Shown piece after piece: positions 13,026 to 28,989 of a DNA stretch of 29,009 bases; positions within the stretch are counted from its first letter, which is position 1; every line of letters begins with the position of its first letter. The notes under the pieces were generated by a model. The model ran no database searches and was not told where the DNA came from. It saw only the letters and a program-made list of their open reading frames with translations. Position numbers and translations under genes: made by a program. The DNA comes from a virus: positions 1 to 29,009 of IMG/VR virus record IMGVR_UViG_3300044293_000343; one strand, given 5' to 3'.

Positions 13026-13120
13026 GCGAACCTCTGTGAATCCGAGTCGGTGCGGTTGGAGTCGAGCCAAAGGAACACGGCTTATGAGGCCGCGCGGGGC
13101 ACCCGCCCTCACACCGAAAG

Positions 13121-25380: not shown

Positions 25381-25692
25381 CTACCAACCCACCGCCTCAA
25401 GCTGGCGATTGATGGTCGCTTGATGTGGGTCGGCCTTCTTCGGCTGAGCTACCGGCGCGGAAGGAATCGCGTGCCGCGAAGTCGATTCGAGAAACCGCCG
25501 CACGGCCTGCCGGCTCGTCATCCACCGCACGCCCTGACGCACGGCCTCCAACTTGACGCGCAGGTTGCCAGCCCGCACGCCGCGCAGAATCCAGCGGGTG
25601 AGCGTGCTGATGCGCGGCGGCTTGCCGTTCACGCGGCCGAAGTAGGCCAACGCTTCGCGCAACGGCACGAGCGGCTCGTCGGTCAGTGCCAC
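25381..25692 (-). CDS. DUF1580 family protein, excisionase/MerR-like regulator candidate
   Basis: 103 residues from GTG 25692, with GGAGAGG about 8 nt upstream. PLVPLREALAYFG and PRISTLTRWILRGVRAGNL followed by RWMTSRQAVRRFLEST match the plan of DUF1580, a small helix-turn-helix family typical of planctomycetes and similar to excisionase (MerR-like) folds: helix, HTH with a tryptophan, wing, helix. The C-terminal 30 residues are basic and polar. As the second gene of the early operon and opposite the repressor, it could be the excisionase or an early transcription regulator. Confidence 0.65.
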   Translation of the reverse strand: MALTDEPLVPLREALAYFGRVNGKPPRISTLTRWILRGVRAGNLRVKLEAVRQGVRWMTSRQAVRRFLESTSRHAIPSAPVAQPKKADPHQATINRQLEAVGW

Positions 25693-25695
25693 GGG

Positions 25696-25875
25696 TTAAC
25701 CCTCTCCACCGAGTTCGGTGTTGGCCTCCGCGAGACACTCGCGGTACTCGGCGTCGATGCTCGCTTCCGCGTAGCGCATAATGATGTCCGCGACCGAGCC
25801 ACCGCGGCGCGCCTTGATAAGCAGCGCCTTCTTCATCAAGGCACGGTGCAAGATCGCGGCCTGCGTGTCGGGCAC
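25696..25875 (-). CDS. small first gene of the early operon, hypothetical
   Basis: 59 residues from GTG 25875; ATG at 25836 is an alternative. The text is helical and charged (ILHRALMKKALLIKARRGG, then DIIMRYAEASIDAEYRECLA). The same frame contains an upstream ATG (25902) with a strong GGAGG, but a TAG stop interrupts at codon 6, so either the true start is later or the gene is broken. It ends 3 bp before the DUF1580 start and lies 78 bp from the early promoter. Family unknown. Confidence 0.45.
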   Translation of the reverse strand: MPDTQAAILHRALMKKALLIKARRGGSVADIIMRYAEASIDAEYRECLAEANTELGGEG

Positions 25876-25925
25876 AGTCTTCGGCTACTCGGTCGCGTTC
25901 ATCGCGCCTCCAGAATTAAGTTGCC

Positions 25926-25943
25926 ACACGCTTCGCGGCGTGT
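25926..25943. promoter_or_regulatory. operator candidate 1 (ACACGC-N6-GCGTGT)
   Basis: Perfect 6-bp inverted repeat with a 6-bp spacer, just downstream of the early promoter on the minus strand. It shares ACAC/GTGT half-sites with two other palindromes at 25949-25958 and 25995-26002, so it may bind the neighbouring LexA-like repressor. Confidence 0.45.
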
Positions 25944-25952
25944 TATTACACA

Positions 25953-25981
25953 ATTGTGCAATGACCGTGAACCGCGGTCAA
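25953..25981 (-). promoter_or_regulatory. early promoter with operator over the -10 box
   Basis: TTGACC (25981-25976) and CACAAT (25958-25953) are separated by 17 nt on the minus strand. The perfect palindrome CACAATTGTG (25949-25958) covers the -10 box, so a bound repressor would block leftward early transcription. This is the expected lysis-lysogeny switch region between early genes and repressor. Confidence 0.5.
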
Positions 25982-25994
25982 GCTGTTGCTCCCT

Positions 25995-26002
25995 ACACGT
26001 GT
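25995..26002. promoter_or_regulatory. operator candidate 3 (ACACGTGT) upstream of the repressor start
   Basis: Eight-bp perfect palindrome just before the repressor Shine-Dalgarno (AAGGTGA, 26004-26010). It may allow autoregulation. On its own it is short enough to be chance; the shared ACAC/GTGT pattern with its neighbours is the argument for it. Confidence 0.35.
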
Positions 26003-26015
26003 CAAGGTGAACACT

Positions 26016-26609
26016 ATGGATGAGGTGAACCTGACCGATCCCGAGCGGCGGCTCGTGGCGCACTTGCGGTCGCTCCGGGGCCGCTCGGCGTCGTACCGCG
26101 AGTTGGCCGACGCGCTCGGGTGGTCCTCGGTGCGCGCCGTGGGCTACCACGCCGAAAACTTGGAGCGCAAGGGGATCGTGGTCCGGGGCGCGCATCGCGG
26201 CCTGCGGCTGGTCGATTCGCCCAGCGTGCTGCCAATCCTCGGGGAAGTCGCCGCGGGCGAGCCGGTGTTCGCCGGCGACGAGACGGAGTGGTTCGACTTC
26301 GAAAAGGTGTTCCGGGCCGAGGACGTGTTCCTGTTGCGGGTGCGGGGCGACTCGATGATCGAGGAGCACATCGCCCACGGCGACTTGGTCGCAGTCCAGC
26401 GCAACCCGGAAGTGGAAGACGGCCGCATCGTCGTGGTGCGCATCGACGGCGCGCACACCCTCAAGAAGATTCGGCTTCAGGGGAAACGCGTCGTGTTGTA
26501 CCCGCGGAACCGGAAGTACAGCGCCCGTGAGGTTCAGCCCTACGAAGACGCCGAAGTGATCGGCGGGTTCATCGGCGTGATTCGCACTCTCAAGCAACCC
26601 AAGAAGTGA
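26016..26609 (+). CDS. LexA/CI-like self-cleaving repressor (S24 peptidase)
   Basis: 197 residues from ATG 26016 with AAGGTGA 5 nt upstream. The N-terminal winged-helix domain (about 1-65; LTDPERRLVAHLRSLRGRSA, YRELADALGWSS) is LexA-like. The C-terminal S24 domain has the cleavage bond Ala80-Gly81 in GEVAAGEPVF, catalytic Ser113 in RGDSMIEEHI and Lys150 in HTLKKIRL. Such proteins hold the prophage silent and self-cleave on RecA filaments after DNA damage, starting induction. Its own upstream region contains three palindromic sites. Because it sits in the prophage switch region it is more likely the phage repressor than the host LexA. Confidence 0.85.
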   Translation: MDEVNLTDPERRLVAHLRSLRGRSASYRELADALGWSSVRAVGYHAENLERKGIVVRGAHRGLRLVDSPSVLPILGEVAAGEPVFAGDETEWFDFEKVFRAEDVFLLRVRGDSMIEEHIAHGDLVAVQRNPEVEDGRIVVVRIDGAHTLKKIRLQGKRVVLYPRNRKYSAREVQPYEDAEVIGGFIGVIRTLKQPKK

Positions 26610-26617
26610 GGTGACCC

Positions 26618-26974
26618 GTGCCCAAGATGACGCCCCGCCAAACGCTGATCTATCAGTTCCTGCTCGACTACTGGTTCGAGCACGGTCGCCCCGCCACCGT
26701 CCGCGAAATCGGCGTCGCTGCCGGCATCGTGTCGCCCAATGGGGTGATGTGCCACCTGCACGCGCTGGTTCACAAGGGCTACCTCGAGCGCGTCGAACTC
26801 GGCGCGGACAAGCGGCACGCGGTGTACCGGCCCACCGCGAAGGAGGTGCTCGCTCGCGCCGTTCCGTCCGGGTTCCTCGTCGGCACCGTCGGCGGCGCGG
26901 TGCGCATGACCCGCCGCGAGTACCGGGCGTGGCTCAAGGAGCAGCTCGCCGCCCTCGACGGAACGCGGGCGTGA
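26618..26974 (+). CDS. LexA-type DNA-binding protein without a peptidase domain
   Basis: 118 residues from GTG 26618, 8 bp past the repressor stop with GAGGTGA ahead. MTPRQTLIYQFLLDYWFEHGRP, read in two parts, then REIGVAAGIVSPNGVMCHLHAL and HKGYLERVE form the LexA winged helix (PF01726 type). There is no Ser-Lys peptidase domain; residues 75-118 are a short basic helical tail (TRREYRAWLKEQLAALDG). It cannot self-cleave, so it may compete with the repressor at operators or act as a Cro-like or anti-induction factor. The GTGA at its end overlaps the next gene. Confidence 0.75.
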   Translation: MPKMTPRQTLIYQFLLDYWFEHGRPATVREIGVAAGIVSPNGVMCHLHALVHKGYLERVELGADKRHAVYRPTAKEVLARAVPSGFLVGTVGGAVRMTRREYRAWLKEQLAALDGTRA

Positions 26975-27453
26975 GCGCCGCCCAGCCGCCCACGTTCTAC
27001 GTCGCCGTCACCGGGCACCGCTCGGCGATCCCCGGCGGGTACTGGACGGCGAACCCGATCCAGCGCATGGACATCAGCTGGCCCGGTGTTCACCTGCTGC
27101 GATCGTATCTCGACGGCGTGCTGTACCGTCGCCGAGACGTGGGCCGGGTTCAGGTGCTGTGCCGCGGCGGTCCCGCCGGCGTCGATCACGCGGTGCGCTC
27201 GTACTGCGAGGCCCGCGCGCTGCCATGCTTCCCGGTTGACCAGATGCGCGACCTGTGGGCCGATGATGCGCCCGTGCGCCGCGATCTGGCGATGCTGGCA
27301 CGGGCGCACGCGCTCGTCTGGTTCGGGCCGCGTGAGGAAGGGCCCGATCCGGTGACGCTCGCGGCCGTGCTGGGGATTCCGTACCGGGTGTGCGATTTGA
27401 ACGTCACCGGAGACCAGATACAAGTGATGAGTTGCAATCAGGGCGATGGTTGA
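26971..27453 (+). CDS. SLOG-family nucleotide-binding protein
   Basis: 160 residues from GTG 26971, translationally coupled to the LexA-type gene (GTGA). Signature pieces: YVAVTGHRSAIPGGYW at the N-terminus, VQVLCRGGPAGVDHAVRSYC (the GGxxGxD phosphate-binding turn), ALPCFPVDQM, and DLAMLARAHALVWFGP near the end. This Rossmann-like fold occurs in DprA, YpsA, LOG and DUF2493 proteins, and often binds nucleotides or ADP-ribose-type ligands in defence and stress systems. Here it shares an operon with two repressor-type proteins, suggesting a ligand-sensing or superinfection role. Substrate unknown. Confidence 0.7.
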   Translation: MSAAQPPTFYVAVTGHRSAIPGGYWTANPIQRMDISWPGVHLLRSYLDGVLYRRRDVGRVQVLCRGGPAGVDHAVRSYCEARALPCFPVDQMRDLWADDAPVRRDLAMLARAHALVWFGPREEGPDPVTLAAVLGIPYRVCDLNVTGDQIQVMSCNQGDG

Positions 27454-27499
27454 CTTTTCCTCAAACTTACCCGCATTGGTCCTGACGATATCGTTCACC

Positions 27500-28798
27500 T
27501 CAACCTACTTCGCCCGCGAGCTTCACGGCCAGCGCGATGTTCTTCTCCGCGTACACCTGTGTGACGTCCGCGCGAGCGTGGCCAAGGAGCACCTGAGCGC
27601 CTTCCAACCCGCCGCCGGGCATGTGCCGCACCTTCGTGGCGAAGCTGTGCCGCAGTTGGTTCGGGTGCCACCGGTGGGCCGCTTCCCACTCGGCGAGCTG
27701 CTCGCGTTGGGCGTCCGTCAACCGTTCGGACCACGCCTTGCGTGACTCCCCTTTGCGCTGAGCCAGCTCGCCCACCGGTGGGAACGCGAGAGCGCAGGCG
27801 CGCCGAACGGCGACGCCGACGGCGTGCGCGCTGTAGGCCGCGGCCGGGTGGCGCTTCGGGTGTCGTTTCTTCTTTGCGGCCTTCGCTCGGATGTGTGAGG
27901 GGTAGCGGGGAGTCTTGCGGGCTGCGCGCTGGGCGGCCCGCAACTCGGCGACGGCGGCGGCGGGGCTGAACACCGGCTCGGCCGGATCGCCACCGAGGAA
28001 CGGCGCGAGCACGGCCTGAGCCTTTGGCCCGATGGCGATCGTTCGACTCTTACCGTGGTGCTTCGTCTTGTGGTGCTTCGGCTGGAACAGCCACACGGGG
28101 CCGGTGCGGTCCATTTCGCACATGCGCAACGAACACGCCTCACCGGGGCGGCACCCGGTGAGGCGCATGAATTCGATCAGGCCCCGCACATGGCGGTTCA
28201 GGAACGGCAGTGTTGCGTTAACGGTCGCGTCATCGACCGGGCCAACTGGTTCGTTCTCGTGGGCGACTGTGCGCCCCGCGCTGAGCCCCTCCACCGCGGC
28301 CAGTGCCTGATACACGAGCGGGCCTACCAGCGCGTGACCGACGGCCCACTTGAAGACGTGCCGGACGCGCCGCGTCTGCGCGTTCACGTACTGCCGCGAC
28401 CACTTCCGTTTGCCAACCTGTTGGTCGCGCCACTTCCGCAGTTCGAGCGGGCCGAACTCGGCGACGGGTAGGTGGCCGTACATCTCGCGCAGCGGCTTGA
28501 GCGCTGCGCCGAAGGTCGCCAGTTCGGTGCTCGTCTCGCCGTAGTGTTGCGTGGCATGATCGCGGAACCGGAGCACCAGTTCTGCGATGGTAATCGGGGC
28601 TGGCACCGCGCCGCGCACCTCGGCGGGTTCGGGCGGGGCTTCCTCGGCGCGAATCTGTTGCAGGAGCGCGGCGTACCGCCGCTTGCACTCGGCCGACCCG
28701 TACGGGCCGAGCCAGTATTCTTGACCCGCGTACTTCACGCGGCCCTGACCGCGGGAGTGACGGTGGAGTTTGGGAACGGCTGCGCGGGGACGTGACAT
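27500..28798 (-). CDS. int: tyrosine recombinase integrase
   Basis: 432 residues from ATG 28798 (GGAG 7 nt upstream). Core catalytic residues are visible: Arg217 in TGCRPGEACSL, a Lys in the KTKHHGKSR beta hairpin (about 244-250), His378 and Arg383 in HPNQLRH, His407 in LLGHARADVTQVYAE, and nucleophile Tyr416. An SAM-like core-binding domain covers about 70-175. Between the Lys hairpin and the H-x-x-R box there is an insert of about 80 residues rich in Arg/Lys, as seen in planctomycete integrases. It would integrate and excise the prophage. It converges with the SLOG gene and has tRNA-Met about 120 bp upstream. Confidence 0.92.
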   Translation of the reverse strand: MSRPRAAVPKLHRHSRGQGRVKYAGQEYWLGPYGSAECKRRYAALLQQIRAEEAPPEPAEVRGAVPAPITIAELVLRFRDHATQHYGETSTELATFGAALKPLREMYGHLPVAEFGPLELRKWRDQQVGKRKWSRQYVNAQTRRVRHVFKWAVGHALVGPLVYQALAAVEGLSAGRTVAHENEPVGPVDDATVNATLPFLNRHVRGLIEFMRLTGCRPGEACSLRMCEMDRTGPVWLFQPKHHKTKHHGKSRTIAIGPKAQAVLAPFLGGDPAEPVFSPAAAVAELRAAQRAARKTPRYPSHIRAKAAKKKRHPKRHPAAAYSAHAVGVAVRRACALAFPPVGELAQRKGESRKAWSERLTDAQREQLAEWEAAHRWHPNQLRHSFATKVRHMPGGGLEGAQVLLGHARADVTQVYAEKNIALAVKLAGEVG

Positions 28799-28892: not shown

Positions 28893-28916
28893 GGGGCCAC
28901 AGTGGTTTCAGTGCAG

Positions 28917-28989
28917 TAGCGGGGGTGGGAATTGAACCCACGACACCTCGCTTATGAAGCGAGTGCTCTAACCTCTGAGCTACCCCGCC
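28917..28989 (-). tRNA. tRNA-Met (anticodon CAT)
   Basis: 73 nt with all four arms: acceptor GGCGGGG/CCCCGCT, D arm GCTC-AGAGGTTA-GAGC, anticodon arm CTCGC-TTCATAA-GCGAG, variable GTGTC, T arm GTGGG-TTCAATT-CCCAC, discriminator A, no encoded CCA. The loop TTCATAA gives CAT, read as elongator Met; lysidine-modified Ile2 cannot be excluded. The terminal pair is G1-U72 rather than G-C, which could come from phage-supplied sequence rebuilding the 3' end. Its 3' end faces the integrase, the normal geometry for tRNA-targeted integration. Confidence 0.93.

Follow-up and report, generated by a model that had tools for sequence, protein, structure and literature searches.

A SLOG-like gene linked to the S24 repressor of a Gemmata-type temperate phage

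Self-cleaving repressors are usually viewed as reporters of DNA damage alone. The locus analysed here, in which genes for an S24 repressor (P1), a peptidase-less LexA-type protein (P2) and a SLOG-like protein, probably of a nucleotide-sensor type (P3), follow one another in a temperate phage, raises the question of which of these genes belong together, and of what the second and third might do to the decision taken by the first.

The phage and its immunity region

The window (the whole stretch of 29,009 nucleotides that was analysed) is one complete IMG/VR record and encodes a temperate tailed phage: it carries genes for a terminase, a lambda-type portal, a capsid/protease, a tape measure and a primase-helicase and, at its right end, an integrase beside a tRNA-Met (Table 1). 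No attachment repeat was found elsewhere in the window. A second predicted tRNA-Met lies at 13046-13116 on the minus strand, amid the phage structural genes. Since the integrase is 87% identical to the copy in an element of a Gemmata MAG (L006), which also adjoins tRNA-Met, the host should be Gemmata or close to Gemmata. Together with this integrase, L006 shares with the window a DUF1580 gene (77%) and is without P1-P3, in place of which (L006 6056-6952, against window 25693-27499) there are about 900 bp with no clear gene.

P1, P2 and P3 point rightward. On their left is a divergent early operon (orf59, then the DUF1580 gene), on their right the convergent integrase, and this region constitutes the immunity region of the phage. 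In two other Gemmata elements discussed below (L169 and L204) the place of the DUF1580 gene in the early operon is occupied by HTH_17 proteins; in L169 the relative of orf59 is likewise divergent from the repressor, as is the HTH_17 gene, with further short ORFs in between.

Table 1. Features of the immunity region and the right end of the window (positions in the window)
Feature	Position	Strand	Remarks
DUF1580 protein	25381-25692	-	PF07618, E 1.5e-11; excisionase-like position in divergent early operon
orf59, divergent early protein, 59 aa	25696-25875	-	37% identical to L169 2338-2559
Predicted P1 operator, TTACACAATTGTGCAA	25946-25961		palindrome, consensus TTACAC-N4-GTGTAA
Promoter-like site of divergent early operon, TTGACC-17-CACAAT	25953-25981	-	9/12 matches; 0.1 expected in shuffles
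P1, LexA/CI-type S24 repressor, 197 aa, ATG start	26016-26609	+	winged HTH and peptidase
P2, peptidase-less LexA-type winged-helix protein, 118 aa, GTG start	26618-26974	+	PF01726
P3, SLOG-like (YAcAr-related) protein, 160 aa, GTG start	26971-27453	+	profile comparison and motifs
Tyrosine integrase	27500-28798	-	PF00589, E 1.9e-13; convergent with P3, 46 bp apart
tRNA-Met next to integrase	28916-28989	-	probable attachment site

The initial annotation had claimed an S24 repressor, a peptidase-less LexA protein and a SLOG protein in close coupling. All three ORFs were recovered, the last as SLOG-like, and so was the spacing, with 8 bp between P1 and P2 and with the P3 start codon overlapping the P2 stop as GTGA. 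The GC content at the first, second and third codon positions (0.71/0.40/0.89 for P1, 0.73/0.47/0.91 for P2, 0.74/0.51/0.83 for P3) supports all three frames. When the P3 frame is extended upstream into P2 the corresponding values are 0.90/0.72/0.47, which is not coding-like, and thus the start at 26971 is correct.

The repressor, its predicted operator and the LexA-type protein

P1 matches Peptidase_S24 (PF00717, E 9.5e-26) and passes the cut-off of the NCBIfam LexA model TIGR00498 (134.6 bits; cut-off 110.95). The cleavage site A80-G81 and the catalytic residues S113 and K150 are invariant across five Gemmata repressors: P1 is likely to be a self-cleaving S24 phage repressor, whose RecA-stimulated cleavage is predicted from these retained residues. 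Its closest relatives, with 47-50% identity, are repressors in Gemmata genomes (L151-L153), which likewise point away from a small early gene. No close relatives of P1, P2 or P3 came out of peptide-pattern scans across viral contigs and genome contigs.

The palindrome TTACAC-N4-GTGTAA is found beside the S24 repressors of three other Gemmata elements (L204, L170 and L197), in two copies each, 46-48 bp apart. In the window, allowing up to 3 mismatches, there is a single copy, and a weaker half-palindrome, TACACGTGTC, lies at 25994-26003, about 45 bp from it, where the relatives hold their second copy. The -10 element of the predicted divergent promoter overlaps the palindrome, which is the place expected for repression. 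On these grounds the palindrome is likely to be the operator of P1, and we infer that P1 occupies it.

P2 matches the LexA DNA-binding domain (PF01726, LexA_DNA_bind, E 5.4e-13) with 49 bits, above the cut-off of 23.7, and LexA chains of the PDB with E from 6e-6 to 1.4e-4. Its 118 residues give no match to PF00717 and are therefore without the S24 dimerisation/peptidase domain. In the AF2 model (pLDDT 75) the HTH is predicted to be LexA-like, and the 45-aa C-terminal tail to form a beta-hairpin plus a helix. Planctomycete genomes commonly encode peptidase-less LexA proteins, which are known from phages as well; one of them, encoded at L050 and L154, is 39-42% identical to P2, C-terminal tail included, and its gene ends at a tyrosine integrase gene and has no SLOG neighbour. 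Other loci (L155, L156, L157 and L168; genomes G065 and G106) show a peptidase-less LexA-HTH gene followed by a sigma-factor-like gene, an arrangement seen 3 times in one genome. A phage contig (L141; 3153-4088, 4953-5195) holds a solo LexA-HTH gene, and the C-terminal part of a nearby gene resembles the nucleoside deoxyribosyltransferase type.

Which DNA would P2 read? The core of its recognition helix, SPNGVMCHL, is identical to that of the Gemmatales host LexA. The box of the latter, derived from 47 Gemmatales lexA upstream regions (loci L050-L109), is conserved and approximately TTGTG[TA]AC[AG]NN[TC]GT[CTA]; a TATACT-type -10 element often comes after it. The host LexA matrix gives the window operator 4.3 bits, versus 9-22 for host sites; 4.3 bits being also the best score in the P1 promoter, a host-type LexA box there was rejected.

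These values bear on the suggestion, made in the initial annotation, that P1 and P2 are two competing operator binders. In such a scheme both proteins would contend for one phage operator, and P2 would be Cro-like or an activator, as is gp6 of phage GIL01. The gp6 site, GaCACAnnTGTGaC (PMC6182141), is indeed close to the window operator, CACAATTGTG, and the core ACRNNYGT is common to host LexA boxes and the window operator. The low score of the window operator in the host matrix speaks against it, as does the presence of the operator in L204, L170 and L197, related prophages that are without P2; moreover P2, unlike Cro, would come from the repressor's own transcript, and its helix is that of the host LexA, whose box differs and did not turn up in the phage switch region. 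Competition between the two proteins is accordingly quite improbable. We consider instead that the sites read by P2 are probably host SOS boxes and not the phage operator of P1, since P2 has the host LexA helix core and the P1 promoter contains no box in the host range. How tightly it would bind SOS boxes is uncertain, because the LexA dimerisation domain is missing.

P3 and its pairing with repressors

The assignment of P3 to the SLOG proteins rests on profile comparisons and motifs. The whole protein has no match in Pfam, NCBIfam or PADLOC, and its N-terminal fragment reaches 12.7 bits against PF10686, for which the gathering threshold is 28.2. A tblastn search of phages and plasmids gave no relatives, and BLAST in 494 sampled genomes (102 Gemmatales and 392 planctomycete) returned chance matches only, in wrong frames or with stops. 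The reference set for YAcAr (PF10686) consisted of 27 aligned YAcAr-type sequences from Gemmatales, 19 of them canonical. Against all 27, hhalign gave P3 an E of 1.4e-5, a probability of 80 and a score of 36.8, the best of 100 shuffles reaching 18.9. Taken singly against the 19 canonical sequences, P3 and its counterparts in L169 and L204 are not above chance. The link runs through a degenerate PF10686 subfamily, with E from 9e-5 to 4e-7 for single sequences and 2.5e-14 for the subfamily versus the core; a profile of the three sequences (P3 and its L169 and L204 counterparts) reaches the canonical core with E 2.2e-5 and probability 76. Members of the degenerate subfamily (G024, G027 and G031) were also considered as another repressor partner and rejected, as no S24 or LexA-HTH gene was found near them.

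P3 keeps TGHR after strand 1, GGPAGVD (GGxxGxD in the family) and R-R-D as the equivalent of the family's R-N. The PGGxGT phosphate/catalytic loop is lost, being replaced by GPREEGPD; it is lost in the L169 and L204 proteins too, which, with the GGxxG element gone or degraded, are more degenerate than P3. The single-sequence AF2 model of P3, with a low pLDDT of 55, shows alternating helices and strands, and a fold search with it gave no match at E < 0.001; a profile search of the PDB with the three SLOG-like proteins also gave no match. If P3 were not a SLOG protein, and its recurrence beside repressors a coincidence of small diverged ORFs, the lack of a single-sequence Pfam match, the poor model and the missing fold match would be accounted for. 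We regard this as very improbable given the E value of the three-sequence profile, the TGHR and GGPAGVD motifs, and the bimodal profile scores described below, which none of 2000 background ORFs attains. We take P3 as SLOG-like and probably not catalytic.

In two other genomes (G092 and G094; L176, L185, L189, L191 and L193) a YAcAr SLOG domain (PF10686) is fused before a tyrosine recombinase (Phage_integrase, SAM_4), in proteins of 460-530 aa with the look of integron-type integrases; four or five copies occur in G094.

The LexA-HTH plus SLOG pair (P2 and P3), which had been put forward as a conserved unit, was looked for in contigs and genomes and found nowhere else. No SLOG gene was found to follow other peptidase-less LexA genes (15 loci), several of which precede sigma-factor-like or unrelated genes. 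What recurs, in two further Gemmata elements, is an S24 repressor gene with a SLOG-like gene directly behind it and without P2. L169 (G005, a Gemmata MAG) has the repressor, a 3-bp gap, a SLOG-like protein of 135 aa (E 4.4e-5 and score 33.2 against the YAcAr profile; best shuffle 17.8) and an integrase whose start overlaps the SLOG-like gene. L204 (G015) has a divergent HTH_17 gene, the repressor, a 4-bp gap, a SLOG-like gene (E 5e-6, score 38.9) and an integrase that overlaps it; what appear to be genes for phage tail proteins lie on the left. The profile scores are bimodal: while P3 and its two counterparts score as given above, none of the remaining ORFs that lie downstream of S24/LexA genes exceeds 21.7, in a scan that covered these genes in all loci, including 80 IMG/VR repressor loci, and the 2000 background ORFs reach 25.1 at most. 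The search for the pair was partly post hoc, L169 having been reached through a repressor match and L204 through the subsequent downstream scan, and the pair is known from three elements in all.

P1 shares 31-32% identity with the repressors of L169 and L204, and P3 shares 25-34% with the SLOG-like proteins encoded beside them; with proteins so diverged, the pairing is either old or of repeated origin. It is not universal: the L170 and L197 repressors, with the same operator, do without a SLOG-like gene, which is thus dispensable. Of the lysogeny operon originally proposed, the linkage of a self-cleaving repressor to a SLOG-like gene holds, the LexA-HTH plus SLOG unit does not, and P2 represents an independent insertion peculiar to this phage; the observation itself is confirmed, its interpretation partly supported. 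The repressor-SLOG pair of Gemmata phages is a new element among repressor-linked accessory genes.

In all three elements the SLOG-like gene is encoded with the repressor, with gaps of 3-8 bp or overlaps, and a common mRNA is probable from the gene order. This arrangement could also arise if the P3 family were a moron, that is, a lysogenic-conversion, counter-defence or superinfection-exclusion gene that borrows the repressor promoter and leaves P1 unaffected. Genes that lysogens express are often neighbours of the repressor, the passages of PMC9503650 on phage SLOG proteins predict that these counter ADP-ribose-based host defences, and the region is variable, P2 being an insertion and L006 having the same integrase and DUF1580 gene and none of the three. 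Variation is what one would expect of a moron; the SLOG-like gene, by contrast, stays beside three highly diverged repressors, in L169 and L204 within 3-4 bp of them, and we find this explanation rather doubtful.

P3 could, on the other hand, be a ligand-gated switch, in which NAD, an ADP-ribose-type or another nucleotide signal would make it a co-repressor or anti-repressor of P1 and the prophage would answer a host signal, for example an antiviral one. The retained TGHR and GGPAGVD are where SLOG proteins usually contact the nucleotide, the P3 gene is linked to that of a repressor, and Iyer et al. 2022, where they treat phages (PMC9503650), report sporadic SLOG-HTH fusions with a predicted SLOG-sensed control of transcription. 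The loss of PGGxGT in all three repressor-linked proteins, and of an intact GGxxG in two of them, speaks against ligand sensing, because a conserved sensing function is expected to retain the pocket motifs; we therefore hold such a switch to be unlikely.

Proposed mechanism and relation to known systems

The reading that we favour, tentatively and with somewhat less than even confidence, is that P1 holds lysogeny, that P3 tunes its stability or RecA-stimulated cleavage, and that P2 is a LexA mimic acting on host SOS boxes. It builds on what can be read directly from the DNA, namely gene order and coupling, the cleavage residues of P1, the shared operator, the recurring repressor-SLOG pair, and the helix core that P2 has in common with host LexA. 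As the lysogeny repressor, P1 would be bound to its operator over the divergent early promoter, and upon DNA damage it would be destroyed through RecA-stimulated self-cleavage. P3, an accessory protein presumably made from the repressor mRNA, would act on the stability of P1 or on this cleavage and so set the induction threshold, in the manner of Hex of phage 434, which is made from the same mRNA as the repressor and blocks its RecA-mediated cleavage (PMC3564112). By this analogy a Hex-like modulator of repressor cleavage is the likeliest role of P3. A connection between a SLOG protein and RecA is plausible because DprA, itself a SLOG protein, conveys ssDNA to RecA (established, and cited in PMC7824862). 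P2, as a peptidase-less mimic of LexA on host SOS boxes, would dampen or reshape the SOS response in the lysogen.

A wider form of this idea would have prophage induction in Gemmata temperate phages wired to a SLOG-type protein, through which a second input (a nucleotide signal, or the ssDNA/RecA state) gates the DNA-damage response of the S24 repressor, with a non-cleavable LexA mimic holding down the host SOS response in the present phage; at this breadth it is decidedly unlikely. The repressor-SLOG pairing, which is shared by two other, distantly similar elements, points to a means, so far undescribed, of adjusting the moment at which a dormant virus is reactivated. With a SLOG-like protein retained next to diverged repressors, the induction decision would have a modulator not described before, in phages of a host phylum that have been little studied. 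The idea can be tested directly in vitro, given the conservation of the operator, the pairing of repressor and SLOG-like genes, and the match of the P2 helix to that of the host.

These proteins can be compared with several known systems. Like bacterial LexA (TIGR00498), P1 scores above the cut-off of the model and has its catalytic residues intact; unlike it, P1 lies in a phage immunity region, its HTH helix differs and its operator is of the phage type. P2 resembles gp6 of GIL01, a truncated LexA homologue that works in the lysis/lysogeny switch of its phage, in that a LexA DNA-binding domain without peptidase takes part in the control region of a temperate phage (PMC6182141); whereas gp6 has its own evolved site and activates a late promoter, P2 has the host LexA helix core and an extra C-terminal tail and belongs to the repressor operon. 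P3 shares profile-level similarity and motifs with the Gemmatales members of the YAcAr/YspA family (PF10686), from which it differs in lying below the Pfam threshold and in having lost the PGGxGT loop. In the phage SLOG proteins of Iyer et al. 2022 a SLOG domain is likewise tied to a DNA-binding regulator and a sensing role is proposed; those passages describe fusions or standalone genes and no pairing with a repressor (PMC9503650), whereas here a separate, degenerate SLOG-like protein accompanies an S24 repressor. With 434 Hex, finally, the locus has in common an accessory gene that overlaps or adjoins the gene of a self-cleaving repressor and would be expressed from its promoter in the lysogen (PMC3564112); P3 differs in being SLOG-like, and it is through gene arrangement that it is likened to Hex and by analogy that it may affect cleavage.
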